Source of the DNA: Candidatus Pelagibacter sp. TMED196 | GTDB lineage: Bacteria; Pseudomonadota; Alphaproteobacteria; Pelagibacterales; Pelagibacteraceae | Reading direction: 5' to 3' | Length of the DNA stretch: 40,593 bases | NCBI GenBank assembly: GCA_002171925.1 | Contig: NHIT01000011.1 | Coordinates: 2,055 to 42,647 of the forward strand | Shown: piece by piece, positions 6,887 to 16,900 of the stretch | How positions within the stretch are numbered: the stretch's first letter is position 1 | Layout of the letters: each line of letters opens with the position of its first letter | The notes under the pieces: generated by a model | What the model saw: only the letters and a program-made list of their open reading frames with translations | What the model was told of the DNA's origin: nothing | Database searches by the model: none | Translations under genes and position numbers: made by a program

Positions 6887-9136
6887 TTAAAATGATGTTC
6901 CTATTTGAAATTTAAATTGTTGAGTTGTATCACTTTCTGCTGAAGATAAATCTTGAGCAAATACAAAGTTTAACGGCCCTATTGGTGTATATACATTAGT
7001 AGCAATACCGACAGCTGACCTAATAGTGCTTGATTGTCCAATTTTTGAGTCGTAATCAACATGCCATAGATTTCCTATGTCCAAAAAGGCTGCTACATCT
7101 GTTTGTGTAGCATCTGGTAATAAATTTGGTAGTGCTGCCTCAAAATTCATCGCTAATGCATAGTTACCGCCTACATAATCTCCAGAGTCAACTGGACCAA
7201 CTTTTCTATTTTCAAAACCTCTGAGTCTCTTTGATGGAATATGAATACGTTTACTTAATCTGACATCATCTTCGACAGCAACAACACCGGCAGCATAAAA
7301 TTTAAAAGCTCCCAATACATTTTCACTAAAACTATGATACTTGCTCAGGGTAAATCTATTAAATACAGAAGAGTTTTCCTCAACATATAAAGGAAGTGTT
7401 TGTGCAAATCCAAGGATTGATCCACTTGTGGGCATAAATCTTCTGTCTCTAGTGTCTTTTTCTACGCCATATCCAAATGATAGGTCAGTAAATGAACCAG
7501 CTTGTTTTTTTAGACGCTCAGAAGCTGTTCCGTCAACCGTCATGTCATCAAATGATAATTCAAGACTCGGTGATAAAAAAATATCATCGTACTGCTCGAA
7601 TCTAGTTCCAATATTTAATTGTGTTAGGGTATTTTCATAACCTGAATTAGGTCTGTCAGTTTTTTTACTAGAGAGACCATATTCAAGAGTATTACCGGAA
7701 AAATTATAGTTTGGATTTATAATTGATATACCACCTCTAAGTGCACTTTCTGAAGCTTCTAGAGAAGTATCAACAATAAGGCCTTTTCCTAAATAGTTAT
7801 TTTCTGTTAGTGAAAATGATACTGTTGTTCCATCTGTACCAGTACCTGCGCCAGCCGCAATTTCTCCTGTTGGCATTTCTTCCACTATTATATCCATGAC
7901 TTTCACATCTTTTGAGGAACCATCAGATACTCTGTAATTTACTTTTTTAAATATATTTCTTGATCTTAATTTTGATATTGATTTATCAAGTTTAATTTTA
8001 CTGTAAGGATCACCTTCATCTAAGATTAATTCTGATCTTATTACAGAGTCATTTGTAACAGTATTTCCCTGTATATTAATTCTTTCAACAACTATTTTGG
8101 GACCTTCAAAGATTTTAAATTCCAAGTCAACAAATTTTCCATCTATCGTTTCGGATACTGAATGAGTTACAAATTGAAGTTCATTATCGTCTATTAGTTC
8201 ATCTATACTTTCAAGAATTTTTGTAATTTTAAAAGGGGAATAATAGGTTCCGGCAAATTTTTTAAAGTCATTTTCTAATGTTTTAAAAATTTTTTTATCA
8301 AAAACAGGATCTATACTAGTTGAAATTTTTTTAATTCTGTATCTTTGGCCAGCGTTTATATTAAATGTAAGCTCAATTCCTTCTTTATCTTTAATAAAAA
8401 CATTACTAGATAAAATTTCAGCATCATAGTAACCTTTGTTTAAATAATAATTTTTAAGTAGTCTTTTATCTAACTCAATTCTTTGATTATTTAAATAAAT
8501 ATTTCGGGAAATAAATTTCCAAAATTTAGCTTCTTCTGTTGCAATAACATCTCTAAGTCTTTTTGTTTTAATTTTTTTTTCTCCTATAAAGAAGATTTTG
8601 GTAATTTTTTCTCTTTTGCCTTTATCTATTATAAATATTAAATCTAATAAATTATTACCACCTTTTACTTCAACTGTTCTAGCTTCTACATTAGTTGAAT
8701 AATAACCCAGCTGATTATAAAACTCTTTAATTATCTCAACATCTTTTTTTACGTCATTTTTGATAAAAGAAGATTTTTCTTTTAATGTCATAAAGTTTAA
8801 AAGAGCTTTTGTGAATTTTTTGGTTGCTTCACCCTGTAAAGCAATAGAATTAATAATTGGGTTTTCTTCAACATTTATTTTTAAAATTCCATTTGAAAAG
8901 TTAATTGATATTTTTGAAAAGAATTTTGTATCGTATAAATTCTTAATAATGATGTTAATTTCTTCCTGTGAATAATCTTTATTTTTTTCAATTTCACCAT
9001 AAACAATAAGAGTTTCATCTGAAATTCTTTCATTACCCAAAATCACAATCTTATTTAATTTTTCAGCTTTTGATGGCAACATAAAAAATATAAAAATGAA
9101 TAAGACTATATGTAGGATATTAAATATTTTTTGCAT
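6887..9136 (-). CDS. bamA: Outer membrane protein assembly factor BamA
   Basis: Core Omp85 subunit of the BAM complex that inserts beta-barrels into the outer membrane. The 749-residue protein has an N-terminal signal peptide (to about residue 24), five POTRA-like repeats (to about residue 410; the segments VEENPIINSIALQG, KITKIFFIGEKKI and VVERINIQGNTVTNDSVIRSEL mark repeats) and a C-terminal barrel. The barrel contains the variant RLRGFENRKVGP of the conserved VRGF loop, and ends in a terminal Phe as expected of a BAM substrate. Its start overlaps the dxr 3' end by 17 nt; rseP, usually between them, is absent. Confidence 0.97.
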   Translation of the reverse strand: MQKIFNILHIVLFIFIFFMLPSKAEKLNKIVILGNERISDETLIVYGEIEKNKDYSQEEINIIIKNLYDTKFFSKISINFSNGILKINVEENPIINSIALQGEATKKFTKALLNFMTLKEKSSFIKNDVKKDVEIIKEFYNQLGYYSTNVEARTVEVKGGNNLLDLIFIIDKGKREKITKIFFIGEKKIKTKRLRDVIATEEAKFWKFISRNIYLNNQRIELDKRLLKNYYLNKGYYDAEILSSNVFIKDKEGIELTFNINAGQRYRIKKISTSIDPVFDKKIFKTLENDFKKFAGTYYSPFKITKILESIDELIDDNELQFVTHSVSETIDGKFVDLEFKIFEGPKIVVERINIQGNTVTNDSVIRSELILDEGDPYSKIKLDKSISKLRSRNIFKKVNYRVSDGSSKDVKVMDIIVEEMPTGEIAAGAGTGTDGTTVSFSLTENNYLGKGLIVDTSLEASESALRGGISIINPNYNFSGNTLEYGLSSKKTDRPNSGYENTLTQLNIGTRFEQYDDIFLSPSLELSFDDMTVDGTASERLKKQAGSFTDLSFGYGVEKDTRDRRFMPTSGSILGFAQTLPLYVEENSSVFNRFTLSKYHSFSENVLGAFKFYAAGVVAVEDDVRLSKRIHIPSKRLRGFENRKVGPVDSGDYVGGNYALAMNFEAALPNLLPDATQTDVAAFLDIGNLWHVDYDSKIGQSSTIRSAVGIATNVYTPIGPLNFVFAQDLSSAESDTTQQFKFQIGTSF

Positions 9137-10304
9137 AATTTTTTGATATAATTTCTAAAGTTTTTTTTCGAGCCCAATTATCAATTTTATAAATTTCATT
9201 AATGTTAGGTACCTTTTTTACAGCATATTTATTGAAATCTCTATCCTTAAAAACCCTTTTTAAAGTCTCATAGATTCCATTATAGGGTATTTTTTTTTTT
9301 AAAAAACTATCTACTAAAATTTCGTTACTAGCATTGAGAATAATTGGACCTGATTTTGATAAAAATTTATCCTTATTTAAAGTAACAATTGGAAATCTTT
9401 TTTTATCAACTTTTTCAAATTTAATATTTTTTAATTGATTTATAAAATTATTATTTTTTTTTATAATTTTATCTATATTTACTTTATTATTATATATGGC
9501 GTTAGATATTGGGATTTTCATATCTGTGTCATGGTATAAAAATTTGATCTGTCCATTTTTAAAAACTACTATGGCATGTACTAAAGACTGTGGATGAACA
9601 ATGATTTCGTATTTTTTTGGATTAAATGAGAATAGCCTGTGTGCTTCAACTAATTCTAATATTTTATTCATTAGATTAGATGAATCTACAGAAATTTTTT
9701 TTCCCATATTCCAATTTGGATGCTTGTAAGCATCTGCAGGTTTAATTTTTTTAAAAGAGCTAATAGGTCTTCTTAAAAAAGGACCTCCTGAAGCAGTTAT
9801 ATAAATTTTTTTAATATCAATATCACTATAACTGTTTGTTAATTGTTTAATTGAAAAGTGTTCAGAGTCTATAGGAATTAATTTAGTTTTACTAATTTTA
9901 ATTATTTTTGATAAAATATGCCAACCACAGATAATAGATTCTTTATTTGCCAACAGTATTTTTTTAGATTGCTTCGCAAATTGTATTGTGGGTTCTAAAC
10001 CTGCTATTCCAACTATTGCGGCAATAGTTATATCAAACTTCAATTTAGTAGGAACATTGTTAAATTTATTTAAAATTTTTGTCTTTTTATTCGTAACATT
10101 TTTTTTAATTTTATTATAAACAAAAAAATCTGTAACTACAAAATATAAGGGTCTATATAAATTTATTTGACGTATAATTTCTTTGTAATTTGAGTTAGCC
10201 GAAAGTAATAGGATACTAAATTTTTTTTTATTTAAATTTAATATTTGAAGAGAACTTTTGCCAATACTTCCCGTAGAACCTAAGATAGAAATTTTCTTTT
10301 TCAT
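9120..10304 (-). CDS. dxr: 1-deoxy-D-xylulose 5-phosphate reductoisomerase
   Basis: Second enzyme of the MEP isoprenoid pathway; it makes MEP from DXP using NADPH. All family motifs are visible: the Rossmann GSTGSIGKSSLQIL at residues 8-21, LANKESI, the metal/substrate segment PIDSEHFSI, ITASGGPFL, HPNWNMGKKISVDSSNLMNK and HPQSLVHAIV. Length 394 is normal. An uninterrupted run of 11 T at 9290-9300 (poly-A in the mRNA) codes for consecutive Lys and is a slippage-prone site. It overlaps cdsA upstream by ATGA and bamA downstream. Confidence 0.97.
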   Translation of the reverse strand: MKKKISILGSTGSIGKSSLQILNLNKKKFSILLLSANSNYKEIIRQINLYRPLYFVVTDFFVYNKIKKNVTNKKTKILNKFNNVPTKLKFDITIAAIVGIAGLEPTIQFAKQSKKILLANKESIICGWHILSKIIKISKTKLIPIDSEHFSIKQLTNSYSDIDIKKIYITASGGPFLRRPISSFKKIKPADAYKHPNWNMGKKISVDSSNLMNKILELVEAHRLFSFNPKKYEIIVHPQSLVHAIVVFKNGQIKFLYHDTDMKIPISNAIYNNKVNIDKIIKKNNNFINQLKNIKFEKVDKKRFPIVTLNKDKFLSKSGPIILNASNEILVDSFLKKKIPYNGIYETLKRVFKDRDFNKYAVKKVPNINEIYKIDNWARKKTLEIISKNYAKNI

Positions 10305-10957: not shown

Positions 10958-11631
10958 ATATTACCAAAATTTCTTTTTACTTTTTTAAAATTATTTATAA
11001 TTTTAATATAATCTGTAACTTTAAAGTCTGGCCACAACTTATCAACAAAATAAATCTCAGTATACGCCATTTGCCAAAGTAAAAAATTACTTAATCTTTT
11101 TTTTCCACCCGATCTAATTAAGATATCTGGATCAACAATACCGTCAGTATACAAATTATTTTGCAGATTTTTCATACTTATAGACAATTTTTTTTTTTGG
11201 ATTTGTCTCATTGCATCAATAATTTCATTTTGTGAACCATAGTTAATTGCCAAATTTACTAAAATTTTATTACATTTTTTTGTTTTTTTCATGGATTCAA
11301 GTAACTTTGATCTTACATTTTTAGGAAGATTTTTTATATTTCCAATTATATTAATTTTAATATTATTTTTTATTAAATTATGAATTTCTTTGCTAAAATA
11401 ATAATTAATTAATTTGAAGAGAAAGGTAATTTCTTTTTTGGGTCTTTTCCAGTTTTCGCTTGAAAACGTATAAAATGTTAATATAGGAATTTTTATTTTA
11501 ATAGAAGCTTTAACAATTTTTTCAATTATTTTAACTCCATTCTGGTGACCAAAATTTCTATTTTTTCCTTTTTTTTTGCCCCATCTACCATTACCGTCCA
11601 TGATAATAGCTATATGGTTAACTTTATTCAT
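10954..11631 (-). CDS. uppS: Isoprenyl transferase (undecaprenyl diphosphate synthase)
   Basis: Cis-prenyltransferase that builds the C55 lipid carrier for cell-wall and glycan synthesis from isoprenoid units supplied by the MEP pathway (dxr lies two genes downstream). Signature residues are IIMDGNGRWGKKKG near the start, with the catalytic Asp, then GHQNGVKIIEKIV, LTFYTFSSENWKRPKKEI, DPDILIRSGGKKRLSNFLLWQMAYTEIYF and LWPDF. The 225-residue length is slightly short. It is joined to frr and cdsA by ATGA overlaps. Confidence 0.96.
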   Translation of the reverse strand: MNKVNHIAIIMDGNGRWGKKKGKNRNFGHQNGVKIIEKIVKASIKIKIPILTFYTFSSENWKRPKKEITFLFKLINYYFSKEIHNLIKNNIKINIIGNIKNLPKNVRSKLLESMKKTKKCNKILVNLAINYGSQNEIIDAMRQIQKKKLSISMKNLQNNLYTDGIVDPDILIRSGGKKRLSNFLLWQMAYTEIYFVDKLWPDFKVTDYIKIINNFKKVKRNFGNI

Positions 11632-12185
11632 AAAGTTAAAATTTCTTTTTCTTTTTCTGCTAAAATTTTTTCTATAAGGGAGATATTTTCATCTGTACTC
11701 TTTTGAACATCGTTTTCAAAGTTTTTGCTTTCATCTTCACCTATTTTTTTATCTTTTAATAAACTTTTAATATTATCATTAGACTCTCTTCTTACATTTC
11801 TTATCGAAACTTTTGCTTTTTCTCCTAAATTTTTTAATATTTTTGTTAATTCTTTTCTTCTTTCCTCGGTAAGTTGTGGAATTCGAATTCTTAAAATTTG
11901 TCCGTCAACTTGAGGGTTAATACCTAAATTGGACTTTTTAATTTCAGTATCGACTAAATTGACATTGCTTTTATCCCAAACCTGTATTGATATTGTTCTG
12001 GGTTCTGGAACGGTTATTGATGCTAACTGGTTAATAGGCATCTTTTGTCCATAAACATCTATCCTTATCAAGTCCAACATGGCTGGGTTTGCTCTACCAG
12101 TTCTTAAAGTCGAAATATCTTTTTTGTACGAAGAAATAGTTTTGCCCATTTTTATTGAAACCTCATTTTTATTAAATATCTCCAT
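11628..12185 (-). CDS. frr: Ribosome-recycling factor
   Basis: Splits post-termination ribosomes together with EF-G. The 185-residue protein matches RRF throughout: DISTLRTGRANPAMLDLIRIDVYG, PINQLASITVPEPRTISIQVWDKS, IRIPQLTEERRKELTKILKNLGEKAKVSIRNVRRE. Length is as expected. It starts 4 nt after the tsf stop; in most proteobacteria pyrH (UMP kinase) sits between these two genes and is missing here. Its stop overlaps the uppS start. Confidence 0.97.
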   Translation of the reverse strand: MEIFNKNEVSIKMGKTISSYKKDISTLRTGRANPAMLDLIRIDVYGQKMPINQLASITVPEPRTISIQVWDKSNVNLVDTEIKKSNLGINPQVDGQILRIRIPQLTEERRKELTKILKNLGEKAKVSIRNVRRESNDNIKSLLKDKKIGEDESKNFENDVQKSTDENISLIEKILAEKEKEILTL

Positions 12186-12189
12186 TTAG

Positions 12190-13053
12190 CTAAATTCCTT
12201 CCCCTACTTTAAATCTTACAAAATCAATAACTTTAATTTCACCATTCTTTGAATATTGTTTTAAAAAACTACTTACTGTCATTTTAGTATCCATGATCCA
12301 AGTTTGATTAAGCAACGTGTTTTCAGAAATAAATTTTTTAATTTTACCATTAGCGATTTTTTCAATCATTTCAGATTCTTTACCACTATTTTTTAACTCT
12401 TCTTTAATAATTTCAAGTTCTTTATCTAAAATATCTTTATTAAGTCCGTCATCATTTATAGCAAGAGGAGATTGCGCTGCTACATGCATAGCAAGTTTAT
12501 TTCCTACTTCATTGAGATTTTTTTTATTATCATTTGAGAGTTTTACAATAGATATTACTTTGCCAATATTTTTTTCTGATGAATTGTGAACATAAAAAAA
12601 ATTTTTACCATCATTACTAAAATATTTACTTCGTCTAATTGTTATTTTTTCGCCAATTTTAGATATTAAAGTTATAAGATTTTCCTCGACTGTTTTGTCA
12701 TTATTCATTTTACTTTTATTTAATTTAGCTAAATCAGCTTTATTGATAAAATTTATATTTGATATTTCTTTACAAAAAGAAATAAAGTCCTTATTTTTAG
12801 CAACAAAGTCGGTTTCACTATTTATCTCTATTATAGAAATATTGCCATCTTTTTCATTTACTAAAATAAGACCATCTGCAGCAATACGGCTCATTTTTTT
12901 TGATGCTTTTGCAATTCCTTTTTTTCTTAAATATTCAATTGATTTTTCAATATCTCCGTTTGTTTCTGTAATTGCTAATTTACAATCTGAAAATCCAACG
13001 CCTGTAATCTCTCTTAGTTTTTTAATATTATCTAAAATTTTTTTGTCTGACAT
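12190..13053 (-). CDS. tsf: Elongation factor Ts
   Basis: Nucleotide-exchange factor for EF-Tu. The N-terminal UBA-like domain contains KLREITGVGFSDCKLAITETNGDIEKSIEYLRKKGIAKASKK (the usual TGAGMMDCK is TGVGFSDCK). It is followed by GLILVNEKDGNISIIEINSETDFVAKN, the core that contacts EF-Tu, and AMHVAAQSP near residue 190. Length 287 is normal. It lies 18 nt downstream of rpsB, the conserved pairing, and is probably co-regulated through the rpsB leader. Confidence 0.97.
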   Translation of the reverse strand: MSDKKILDNIKKLREITGVGFSDCKLAITETNGDIEKSIEYLRKKGIAKASKKMSRIAADGLILVNEKDGNISIIEINSETDFVAKNKDFISFCKEISNINFINKADLAKLNKSKMNNDKTVEENLITLISKIGEKITIRRSKYFSNDGKNFFYVHNSSEKNIGKVISIVKLSNDNKKNLNEVGNKLAMHVAAQSPLAINDDGLNKDILDKELEIIKEELKNSGKESEMIEKIANGKIKKFISENTLLNQTWIMDTKMTVSSFLKQYSKNGEIKVIDFVRFKVGEGI

Positions 13054-13071: not shown

Positions 13072-13860
13072 TCAAGTTTTTTTTGGTGTATTGCTATCTT
13101 TTTTGGATGGTTGTTCTTTTTTTTCTGACGGATTACTTTTGTTTTGTGTTTCAATATTTATTTTATTAGTAACAATATTTTTCTTTGCATCAATAATTGT
13201 GGATTTTAATAACTCGCAATAGAGATCAATAGATCTTCTTGCATCATCGTTACCTGGAATTGGATGGTTTATTCCTGTTGGGTCAGAATTGGAGTCTAAA
13301 ACTGCGACTATTGGTATTTTTAATTTAATTGCCTCTTTGATTGCTAATGACTCGACATTTGTGTCGATAACAAAAATCATTTCAGGAATTTTGTTCATAT
13401 TTGAAATCCCCCCCAATGATCTATTTAGTTTATCCTTTTCTTTTCCAAGTTTTAGTATTTCTTTTTTAGTAAATCCAATATCTTCTTTGGATAAATCTTT
13501 TTCTAACTTTTTTAATCTTTTGATTGAATTTTGAATAGTTTTCCAATTAGTAAGCATGCCACCTAACCATCTATAATTAACATAAAACTGCTCAGTATCT
13601 TTTGCTAATTTGAGAACTGTTTCGGAGGCCTGTTTTTTTGTGGATACAATTAAAAGCTTACCGCCCGAAGATATGCATTTATGAACTTCTTTCATTGCAT
13701 TTTTTATTAAAACAACAGTTTGGGTCAAATCTATTATATGGATTGAATTTTTTTCACCATAAATAAACTGTTTCATTCTTGGATTCCATCTAAGAGTTTT
13801 GTGGCCAAGATGAACACCGGCTTCTAATAATTGTTTTATTGATACGTTAGGTATGTTCAT
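13072..13860 (-). CDS. rpsB: 30S ribosomal protein S2
   Basis: Small-subunit ribosomal protein that binds late in 30S assembly. S2 motifs are complete: VSIKQLLEAGVHLGHKTLRWNPRMKQFIYGEKNSIHIIDLTQT, YVNYRWLGGMLTNWKTI and VDTNVESLAIKEAIKLKIPIVAVLDSNSDP, then NDDARRSIDLYCELL. After about residue 230 there is a Lys/Ser/Asn-rich tail (QNKSNPSEKKEQPSKKD) beyond the usual core; total 262 residues. No strong Shine-Dalgarno precedes the ATG, and the expected site is occupied by an arm of the structured leader upstream. Confidence 0.98.
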   Translation of the reverse strand: MNIPNVSIKQLLEAGVHLGHKTLRWNPRMKQFIYGEKNSIHIIDLTQTVVLIKNAMKEVHKCISSGGKLLIVSTKKQASETVLKLAKDTEQFYVNYRWLGGMLTNWKTIQNSIKRLKKLEKDLSKEDIGFTKKEILKLGKEKDKLNRSLGGISNMNKIPEMIFVIDTNVESLAIKEAIKLKIPIVAVLDSNSDPTGINHPIPGNDDARRSIDLYCELLKSTIIDAKKNIVTNKINIETQNKSNPSEKKEQPSKKDSNTPKKT

Positions 13861-13868
13861 AATTTTTT

Positions 13869-13925
13869 CCGGTTAAACCACCACAGCTTTCCTTTCGGAC
13901 CGGTGGGCAATTGCCCTGTGCTGTG
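13869..13925 (-). promoter_or_regulatory. Structured rpsB leader RNA, predicted H-type pseudoknot
   Basis: Read on the - strand, this 57-nt element ends 8 nt before the rpsB ATG and is markedly GC-rich against its surroundings. In order it holds CACAGC (13925-13920), a self-complementary GGGCAATTGCCC that can form a 4-bp stem with an AATT loop (13916-13905), CCGGT (13903-13899), a TCC-GAAA-GGA hairpin with a GNRA tetraloop (13899-13890, sharing one base), GCTGTG (13887-13882) pairing with the first arm, and ACCGG (13873-13869) pairing with CCGGT. The interleaved pairing makes a pseudoknot whose last arm occupies -13 to -9 from the start codon. S2-responsive leaders of rpsB-tsf are established in gammaproteobacteria; that this one binds S2 is inference. 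Confidence 0.7.
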
Positions 13926-13942
13926 TGCGAAATTAAATATTT

Positions 13943-13969
13943 TTTATATTCTTTCTAACTGAAAATCAA
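13943..13969 (-). promoter_or_regulatory. Candidate promoter for rpsB-tsf
   Basis: On the - strand TTGATT (13969-13964) and TATAAA (13948-13943) are separated by 15 nt, just after the dnaE stop and upstream of the structured rpsB leader. The spacing is short and the region is AT-rich, so chance matches are likely. The presence of a leader element argues for a transcript starting in this gap. Confidence 0.3.
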
Positions 13970-13973
13970 GATG

Positions 13974-16900
13974 TTAAAAACTTATTTTTTTAATATATTC
14001 TTTGTTTTTAAGAGCACTAAGCTTGTTTAAATTAAATTTTCTACGATTTTTAAGTGAAAAAATATATATTTTTGAATTTCTATTAACTTTTAATTGAATT
14101 TTTGTTTCACCAGTATCATTTAGCAAAATCTTTAAATCTTGCATGTTGGTTTTTCCATTTATTTCTATTGTAACATTATCGTATGATTTATTAATGAAGT
14201 CATTAATTGGTACAATATTTTTGATATTTATTCTTCTTGAATTTGTAAGATCTTTTAAGTTATCCTTTTGTAAAGTAATCAAAAATGAGTTGGCAGTCTT
14301 TAATTTTTCTCTATTTGAAATTAATAAATCAGAAAATATAAATAATTCATATTCACTTTTTAAATCAGAAAATTTAATTATAGCAAAAGGTGTTCCTTTG
14401 GCGCTCTTTTTTTCTTGAATTGACATAATGGTGCCGGCCACGTATCCATTACTATCAGAGTTTTGAACATAGCTTGAGAAAGATTTTATTTTTAATTCAT
14501 CAAAGTAATCTTTGTAAGCATTAAGGGGATGATCAGACATATAAAATCCAATTGATTGGAATTCGTTTAATAAAATATCTTTTTTTGAATCTGTTTCTTT
14601 ATTTTTTTCTAATTTAAATATAGTTTCGTCGTTTTCGGATTTATTGGAAAATAAACTCGTCTGATTACTGATTTTTTCTTCCCAAAAAGTTTTATTAACT
14701 TGAATAATTTTAGGTATAGCTTTTAACAACGACCCTCTATCATTAAATAACTCGTCGAAAGCACCTGCTTTAACTAAACCTTCAAGCTGTAACTTATTTA
14801 TATCTTTTGGATTAACCCTATTAATAAAATCATTTAGTGTTTCAAATTTACCATTTTTTTCTCTTTCTTTTATAATATTTGAAACGGCTTCTTTGCCAAC
14901 ACTTTTTATAGCTGACAATGCATAATAAATTTTGCCTTTTTTGGATATAAAGTCAGCGTAAGATTTATTTATTGATGGTCGAATTATTTCAATTTTAAGT
15001 CTCTTAAGTTCTTCTACAAATTCTCTTAATTTATCGGTATTTGATAATTCTGTGGACATAGTTGCGGCAATAAAATCCTCGGGAAAGTATTTTTTTAAAT
15101 ATGCAGTTTGATAAGCTATTAAAGCATACGCAGCAGCATGACTTTTGTTAAAACCATATTCTGCAAATGGCTTAATTTTTTGAAATATGAATACTGCTAT
15201 ATCTTTGCCAATACCATTTTTTGTAGCTCCTTTAATAAATTTTTCTTCTTGTTTTTCAAGTTCTTTTCTTTTTTTCTTTCCCATTGCTTTACGTAAAATA
15301 TCGGCTTCTCCGGGAGAAAAATTTGCTAATGTTTGAGCTATTTGCATTACCTGTTCTTGATAAATAATAATACCATAAGTAGGTTTTAGAATTTTTTCTA
15401 GGCTTTCATGAATGTAATCAGGTTTTTTTAAACCATTTTTACAATCATTATAAATTGGAATGTTGTTCATCGGTCCTGGTCTGTACAGAGCTACCAATGC
15501 TATTATATCTTCGAATTTATTAGGCTTCATTTGTTTTAAAGCCGATCTAACACCCGTACTTTCAAGTTGAAAAAGTCCTGTGGTTTCACCTGTTGAAAGC
15601 ATTTCATAAACCTTGCTATCATTTAAGGAAATTTTGCTTATGTCTAAATCTATATTTTTACTTTTTAGAATCTTTATAGTTTTACTAATTAGTGTTAACG
15701 TATTAAGACCAAGTATATCAAATTTTACTAAGCCAGCATTTTCTGAGGAGTGCATATCAAATTGTGTTGATGGCAAAAGTAGATTTGAACTATTGTCTCT
15801 GTAGAGAGGAACTTCCTCAGATAATTTTTCTCCAGCTATCACCACCCCTGCTGCATGAGTTGCGAGGTTTCTATTAAGACCCTCAAGCTTTAATGAAAGT
15901 GCAATTAACTTTTTAACTTTAGGATTGTTTTTTTCTTCTTGTTTAAATCTGGGCTCTCTATCAATAGACTCCTGCAAACTTAACGGTCTTGATGGATCAA
16001 AAGGTATCATTTTACAAATTTTATCTACATGTCCATAAGGTAAACCTATTACTCTACCAATATCCCTTAATGCCATTCTGGCTTTTAACTTACCAAATGT
16101 AATAATGTGAGCTACACCATTTTTGTACTTTGATTTTAGATAATTAAAAACTAAATCTCTTTTTTCTTCACAAAAATCAATATCAAAGTCGGGCATTGAT
16201 ATCCTGTCTGGATTAAGGAATCTTTCAAAAATTAGGCCAAACTCTATAGGGTCTAGGTCTGTGATATCTAAAGAATAAGCTACAAGTGAACCAGCACCAG
16301 AACCTCTTCCTGGGCCTACAGGGATATCGTTTAGTTTTGCCCACTTAATATAATCAGAAACAATTAAAAAATAACCTGAGTAATTCATTTTATGAATTAT
16401 GCTTAATTCATGAGATAATCTATCAAAATATTTTTTTTTAATTTTTTCTAAATTTATTTTATCTTTTTTTTTTAATATAAAGTTTTTTAATCTATTTTTT
16501 AAGCCTTCATTAGATTGAAATGTGAGTTCATCATTTTCGTTACGCGAATTAGAAATTTTTATGGACGGTAGGACTGGTTTTGACTTTTTTACTTTGTAAC
16601 TAAATCTGAAAGGAAAATTATAATTATTTTCAAGAGCTTCTGGAATATCAGAATATAATTTAGTTAATTCTTCGTTAGTTCTGATGTAGTGATTACCTGA
16701 ATATTTTTTTCTGTTAATTTCATCAACATAGGTCTTTTCACCAATACATAATAGCGCATCATGTGCTTCGTACATATCTCTGTTTATGTAAAAAACTTCT
16801 TGGGAAGCGATAAGAGGTATGTTTTCTTTTTCGGATAAATTTAAAAAAATATCTTCCAGTTTAGGCTCGCCTGTATCATTATGCCTTTGAATTTCTAAAT

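Follow-up and report, generated by a model that had tools for sequence, protein, structure and literature searches.

Just upstream of rpsB the window, by which we mean the whole stretch of 40,593 nucleotides that was analysed, encodes a folded RNA with three helices (P1, P2 and P3) and a pseudoknot, at 13929-13869 on the minus strand. We have little doubt that it represents the rpsB motif of Meyer et al. (2009), RF01815 in Rfam, in its SAR11 form, that is, a cis-acting mRNA leader. The leader is already known, and it was described first from the same gap in a SAR11 relative.

The gap between dnaE and rpsB is 113 nt long, as originally predicted, and it covers 13861-13973, between the dnaE stop at 13974 and the rpsB ATG at 13860. 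The 3' part of this gap is an island of 61 nt with a GC content of 59%, against 28% for the window. Read along the minus strand, the order is CGC-A-CACAGC, P2 (GGGC/GCCC), CCGGT, P3 (CC-GAAA-GG), GCTGTG-GTG, ACCGG, eight A/T and ATG, with short linkers between them (Table 1). In the RF01815 alignment the outer C-G pairs of P1 are 13929/13879 and 13927/13881, and the bulge is A13926.

The original prediction had placed four stems here, and all of them are found on the minus strand at those positions, with ACCGG at -13 to -9 from the ATG. It was also right about the site of the element, but the 5' end is 13929 rather than 13925, owing to the outer P1 pairs and the bulged A. Further, the predicted TCC-GAAA-GGA hairpin exists, but its stem has 2 bp instead of 3. 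The third pair uses the U that closes the pseudoknot, so it competes with the last pseudoknot pair, and it is lost in two relatives that carry GGT (loci L003 and L011).

Table 1. Features of the rpsB leader, its surroundings and the genes that follow it, in window positions.
Feature	Positions	Strand	Basis or remark
Putative -35 TTGATT, just after the dnaE stop	13964..13969	-	Position relative to P1
Putative -10 TATAAA	13943..13948	-	Position relative to P1
P1 outer 5' strand CGC and bulged A	13926..13929	-	RF01815 alignment; outer C-G pairs in 54/54
P1 core, 5' strand CACAGC	13920..13925	-	Pairs with GCTGTG; covariation
P2 hairpin GGGC-AATT-GCCC	13905..13916	-	GGGC 13916-13913 / GCCC 13908-13905
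Pseudoknot 5' arm CCGGT (J2-3)	13899..13903	-	Pairs with ACCGG across P1
P3 mini-hairpin CC-GAAA-GG	13891..13898	-	Sequence; comparison with L003, L011
P1 core, 3' strand GCTGTG	13882..13887	-	Pairs with CACAGC; covariation
GTGG, with GTG as outer 3' strand of P1	13878..13881	-	Sequence and alignment
Pseudoknot 3' arm ACCGG	13869..13873	-	At -13 to -9 from the rpsB ATG
8-nt spacer AAAAAATT up to the start codon	13861..13868	-	Without 4-nt Shine-Dalgarno core
rpsB, ribosomal protein S2	13072..13860	-	TIGR01011, 310.3 bits, cut-off 76.3
tsf, elongation factor Ts	12190..13053	-	TIGR00116, over cut-off
frr, ribosome recycling factor	11628..12185	-	TIGR00496, over cut-off

Whether the leader belongs to a described family was left open by the original prediction, and a search of Rfam answers this. 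The RF01815 (rpsB) model aligns from 1 to 132 of its 132 positions on the rpsB strand, including the AACCGG segment, with 30.4 bits and an E-value of 3e-4. This is below the RF01815 cut-off of 40 bits, and a search at the gathering threshold reports no family for the window; the cut-off is a curation threshold and no structural feature. The traits of the family are all found: the element lies directly upstream of rpsB, P1 is topped by a junction with a very short P2 and P3, and a five-pair pseudoknot joins J2-3 with the 3' extension.

In the part of their paper that concerns this motif, Meyer et al. (PMC2704228) describe an element between dnaE and rpsB in 'Cand. Pelagibacter ubique' HTCC1062 as the 'rpsB motif'. 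It has P1, a junction with P2 (three pairs) and P3 (two pairs), and a pseudoknot in which J2-3 pairs with the 3' extension of P1, by five pairs outside Firmicutes. It is found in most Alphaproteobacteria, and most Gammaproteobacteria are placed in the same motif (PMC2704228). As far as that description goes, the window and P. ubique share the gap, the gene order, P1, P2, a 2-bp P3 and the J2-3 pseudoknot, while P2 has 4 bp instead of three and the gap has 113 nt instead of 129 nt (PMC2704228). Compared with RF01815, P2 and P3 are much shorter in the window, and after the arm the consensus AAAAAGgAg is replaced by AAAAAATT. A new RNA class is ruled out by the RF01815 match together with this description (PMC2704228). 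As originally predicted, a pseudoknot leader precedes rpsB, and it is conserved; Meyer et al. connect its family with the control that S2 exerts on rpsB-lacZ in E. coli (PMC2704228).

Judged on one sequence, the stem pattern is weak. Dinucleotide shuffles contain interleaved Watson-Crick stems of 6 and 5 bp in 2651 of 5000 cases for the gap and in 211 of 5000 for the 61-nt island, and 2513 of 4048 tiles of the window contain them too. The fold of the gap plus ATG has a z of -2.38, with 4 of 200 shuffles equally low. As interleaved stems are common in shuffles, we dropped the attempt to judge the element from a single sequence, and the case for its reality rests on the comparison with relatives.

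The nearest rpsB loci belong to Pelagibacteraceae (SAR11), with a best S2 identity of 96%. The motif is present in 39 of the 39 Pelagibacteraceae loci that were found by the S2 protein alone and hold the gene start (L001-L039). It should be noted that only L001-L060 test presence, since L081-L110 and L111-L140 were found via RF01815 itself. From the 141 records (the window and L001-L140) an rpsB start was obtained for 136, the others being L041, L042, L059, L061 and L062; L042 shows the motif but sits outside the leader counts. The motif was parsed in 118 of the 136: 70 from Pelagibacteraceae, 62 of them distinct (the window, the 39 loci and a further 30 obtained through RF01815), and 48 from other class members. 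The 18 unparsed records (L063-L080, other phyla) are no evidence of absence, since the pattern was tuned to Alphaproteobacteria.

Of 190 genomes drawn class-wide, 121 have an RF01815 match at E 0.01 and 48 have one over the cut-off. The ranks after the top 30 of these 121, with G013 (already counted) and the last 10 omitted, supplied 80 more loci (L145-L224), of which all but L192, L201 and L205 were parsed (77). Pairs were studied in 76 of these, L180 being a false parse, and spacers in 75, since no start was found for L186. Some of the 124 other members could be near SAR11; they are all distinct, and none has a motif string in common with the SAR11 set. The parsing pattern was C.CA before P1 and G.GG after P1, loosened to [CT].CA and [AG].GG for the 80 added loci.

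Within SAR11 the double changes in P1 are found at the last two core pairs, 6 and 17 respectively (23 cells in all). When the other class members are included there are 85 cells at 6 of 9 pairs, with 1, 23, 8, 15, 6 and 32 double changes along the core. In both alignments 0 of 500 shuffles were as high in double-change cells or in covariation score, with the caveat that kinship among the sequences can be enough to exceed such shuffles, with no structure involved, and that alignment A2 was fitted to P1. Slid controls gave 0 double changes in SAR11 and at most 23 with the other class members. Two of the five measures do not rise above the shuffles: the number of pairs with a double change (239 and 165 of 500 as high in the two alignments) and the number of further pair types (402 and 413 of 500 as high). 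In the outer part of P1, two C-G pairs are kept in 54 of 54 aligned rows, as is the bulged A next to them, and the middle position forms no standard pair in 41 of 54.

The pseudoknot is paired and invariant in all 62 distinct Pelagibacteraceae leaders, so there is no covariation within SAR11. Among the 124 other class members there are five compensated double changes at three different pairs, three G-U pairs and one broken pair. The first 48 contribute compensated double changes in three leaders (L056, and L129 and L133, which look like near kin and perhaps represent one event) and the broken pair (L048). The further 76 contribute double changes in L194 and L208 and the three G-U pairs, with none broken. 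These counts are biased toward pairs, as the 5' arm was chosen by its pairing, and pairs 4 and 5 are fixed on their 3' side by the pattern, which required A-C to open the 3' arm; alignments A1 (SAR11) and A2 (for the 3' arm) are free of this requirement. In the P2 segment a putative helix of 3-5 bp with changing letters, and in the P3 segment one of 2-5 bp, are found in all 62 distinct Pelagibacteraceae leaders, each taken as the best helix of its segment. The original prediction had named compensatory changes in the two interleaved stems as its test, and such changes are found: going by the aligned sequences, P1 covaries clearly and the pseudoknot thinly.

These comparisons bear on two quite different explanations of the GC-rich island. 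One takes it for inverted repeats that arose by chance, or for a DNA site under conservation, with no RNA structure; this would fit with the frequency of the interleaved stems in the gap shuffles (2651/5000) and with pseudoknot arms that hardly vary. However, it is contradicted by the compensatory changes in P1, and the Rfam match lies on the rpsB strand, so that we give this idea next to no credence. The Rfam type label 'Gene; sRNA' would instead suggest a stand-alone small RNA and no leader. Against that, the distance from the element to the rpsB start is 4-10 nt in every one of the 62 leaders and there are 0 terminator-like sites in 13700-14150, which makes a separate small RNA very improbable.

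The published rpsB motif is widespread in SAR11, and the Rfam cut-off hides it there. Among 99 Pelagibacteraceae genomes RF01815 matches 57 at E 1 or better and 0 over the cut-off. A model made from 38 SAR11 leaders (R1) matches 80 of the 99 at E 0.01 and 79 at 2.6e-7 or better, in counts from a model trained on the group it searched, which take every match, whatever gene follows it, in genomes of any completeness. When run over 61 chosen sources R1 matched 54. A second R1 match is present in G040, G064, G078 and G082, and it is strong only in G064. There it lies at contig C18:34136-34222 with 48.9 bits, against 97.7 for the main match, and represents either a true duplicate or a mixed assembly. 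The type given to RF01815 in Rfam is 'Gene; sRNA', although it is placed as a leader before rpsB.

The last arm was originally predicted to mask the Shine-Dalgarno (SD) of rpsB. In the window the arm shares its last two Gs with a GGA at -10 to -8, but there is no 4-nt SD core, and the arm with spacer forms only three pairs with the 16S tail (-3.5 kcal/mol). Any masked SD would be weak, at best minimal (GGA), and the arm as a strong SD was rejected on the same grounds. It was also claimed that no other SD is present. The spacer indeed holds no 4-nt core, but this is ordinary here: a core in the region -20..-1 is found in 6 of 31 ATG-start genes of the window (38 genes were picked from 48 ORFs, and the 31 with ATG include rpsB) and in 9 of 68 SAR11 tsf genes (tsf starts being motif-found in 68 of 70). 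A missing SD is common in SAR11. The anti-SD is kept in L142 and L143.

In all 62 distinct Pelagibacteraceae leaders the spacer from pseudoknot to ATG is 4-10 nt long, and in 59 it is without a 4-nt SD core, the exceptions being L081, L083 and L094. Among the other class members the spacer has an SD core in 46 of 48 (9-23 nt) and 63 of 75 (5-37 nt), and its length is 13-22 nt in 109 of 123. The short core-less spacer is not unique to SAR11, as it is seen in GC-rich leaders too (L191 and L211 with 5 nt, L199 with 10 nt). Pairing of arm and spacer with the 16S tail has a median of -3.5 kcal/mol in SAR11 and -5.6 in the 48 other class members. In the region -20..-1, 34 of 62 SAR11 leaders reach -4 kcal/mol, which may be partly due to the GNGG after P1 coming into range. 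In 11 of 62 SAR11 leaders, and in 41 of 48 and 44 of 76 other leaders, this GNGG reads GAGG and forms an SD core; only G.GG or A.GG could be parsed at this place. In SAR11 its end lies 13-19 nt ahead of the ATG, and it could be a decoy or standby site. No description of the short-spacer variant was found among the titles and abstract openings covered in the literature on rpsB leaders and on the SAR11 Shine-Dalgarno, a literature in which subscription papers mostly fall outside coverage.

In E. coli, excess S2, aided by S1, represses rpsB-tsf via the 5' UTR, according to the pages on S2 in a 2024 review that calls the details of this self-repression unclear (PMC10931766). The E. coli leader (Aseev et al. 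2008, cited in PMC10931766 and PMC2704228) likewise stands before rpsB-tsf. The review places both the SD and the start codon of that leader outside the operator (PMC10931766), so SD masking is not the known E. coli mechanism. In the window the arm stops 8 nt short of the ATG, and the spacer lacks a 4-nt SD core.

S2 control of the SAR11 leader is something we infer from E. coli. By this analogy free S2, in excess over ribosomes, would bind the fold and rpsB translation would be repressed, while tsf, 18 nt downstream of rpsB, would be repressed by lost coupling. In SAR11 the folded state might directly exclude the 30S subunit, with S2 acting by stabilising that state. Such exclusion is suggested by the position of the arm, 4-10 nt from the start codon and mostly without a 4-nt SD core between them, and blocking of the start region is plausible. 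The footprint of a bound 30S subunit covers the site of the SAR11 arm. Control might extend to frr and later genes, as their tight spacing would allow.

Our tentative proposal, which we hold to be possible rather than probable, is that the operator, which in its earlier form lay upstream of the ribosome-binding site, came to overlap that site in SAR11. When the spacer with its SD was lost, the invariant arm would have ended up inside the 30S footprint, and S2 would control a start nearly devoid of SD by direct occlusion. Judging from the spacers, the same shortening may have arisen separately in a few other members (L191 and L211, 5 nt and no SD core). If the short spacer matters, SAR11 leaders would be a simple system for S2 self-repression, with no strong separate SD to confuse the picture.

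Two other readings keep the family assignment and differ in what the fold does. The arm might mask a minimal SD, the GGA that overlaps it, so that control would be by SD masking. An A or GA follows the arm in all distinct SAR11 spacers listed and in 21 of 62 SAR11 leaders the pairing of arm and spacer to the 16S tail reaches at least -4 kcal/mol in strength, in agreement with this. However, the window and the SAR11 median stay at -3.5 kcal/mol while all 48 of the other class members compared reach -4 or better, and in 46 of those 48 it is the spacer, beyond the arm, that carries the SD core; we therefore regard SD masking as rather unlikely. Alternatively, the fold might have a mainly positive role and recruit 30S subunits bearing S1 and S2 to a start that is nearly without SD, with S2 repression secondary or lost. 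The review mentions bS1 as a reported pseudoknot binder (PMC10931766), and the core-less spacer in 59 of 62 leaders and a 3' arm that never varies in SAR11 would suit such a role. Still, the family is tied to E. coli S2 autorepression in the accounts of both papers (PMC2704228, PMC10931766), and a fold that is stable at -13 to -9 would be expected to impede initiation. We consider recruitment decidedly unlikely, and occlusion by the S2-stabilised fold is the reading we prefer.

Upstream of the leader, TTGATT and TATAAA lie 15 nt apart in the window, and their placement makes a transcript start near 13935 possible. A TTG exactly 40 nt before P1 is found in 33 of 65 distinct Pelagibacteraceae upstream regions, against a mean of 1.1 at other offsets. 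TATA is found at -18, -20 and -19 from P1 in 21, 18 and 12 of 65, with some sequences possibly counted twice. Part of this positional signal may be due to shared descent. A promoter call from hexamer scores was rejected, as the hexamer-pair score is at chance (mean 8.46 for real and 8.46 for shuffled sequences; 2 sites against 2.4 expected), and only the fixed position of TTG and TATA favours the putative promoter.

As the original prediction said, tsf, frr and further genes lie close behind rpsB. The labels of the cdsA-like and dxr genes come from NCBIfam matches below cut-off. A viral carrier was considered and discarded, with five pattern matches and 0 confirmed. In gene order rseP is expected between dxr and bamA; here, with no rseP between, dxr overlaps bamA at 6887-10304. 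Similarly, pyrH usually lies between tsf and frr, and in the window, with no pyrH between, tsf is followed by frr after a gap of 4 nt (11628-13053).
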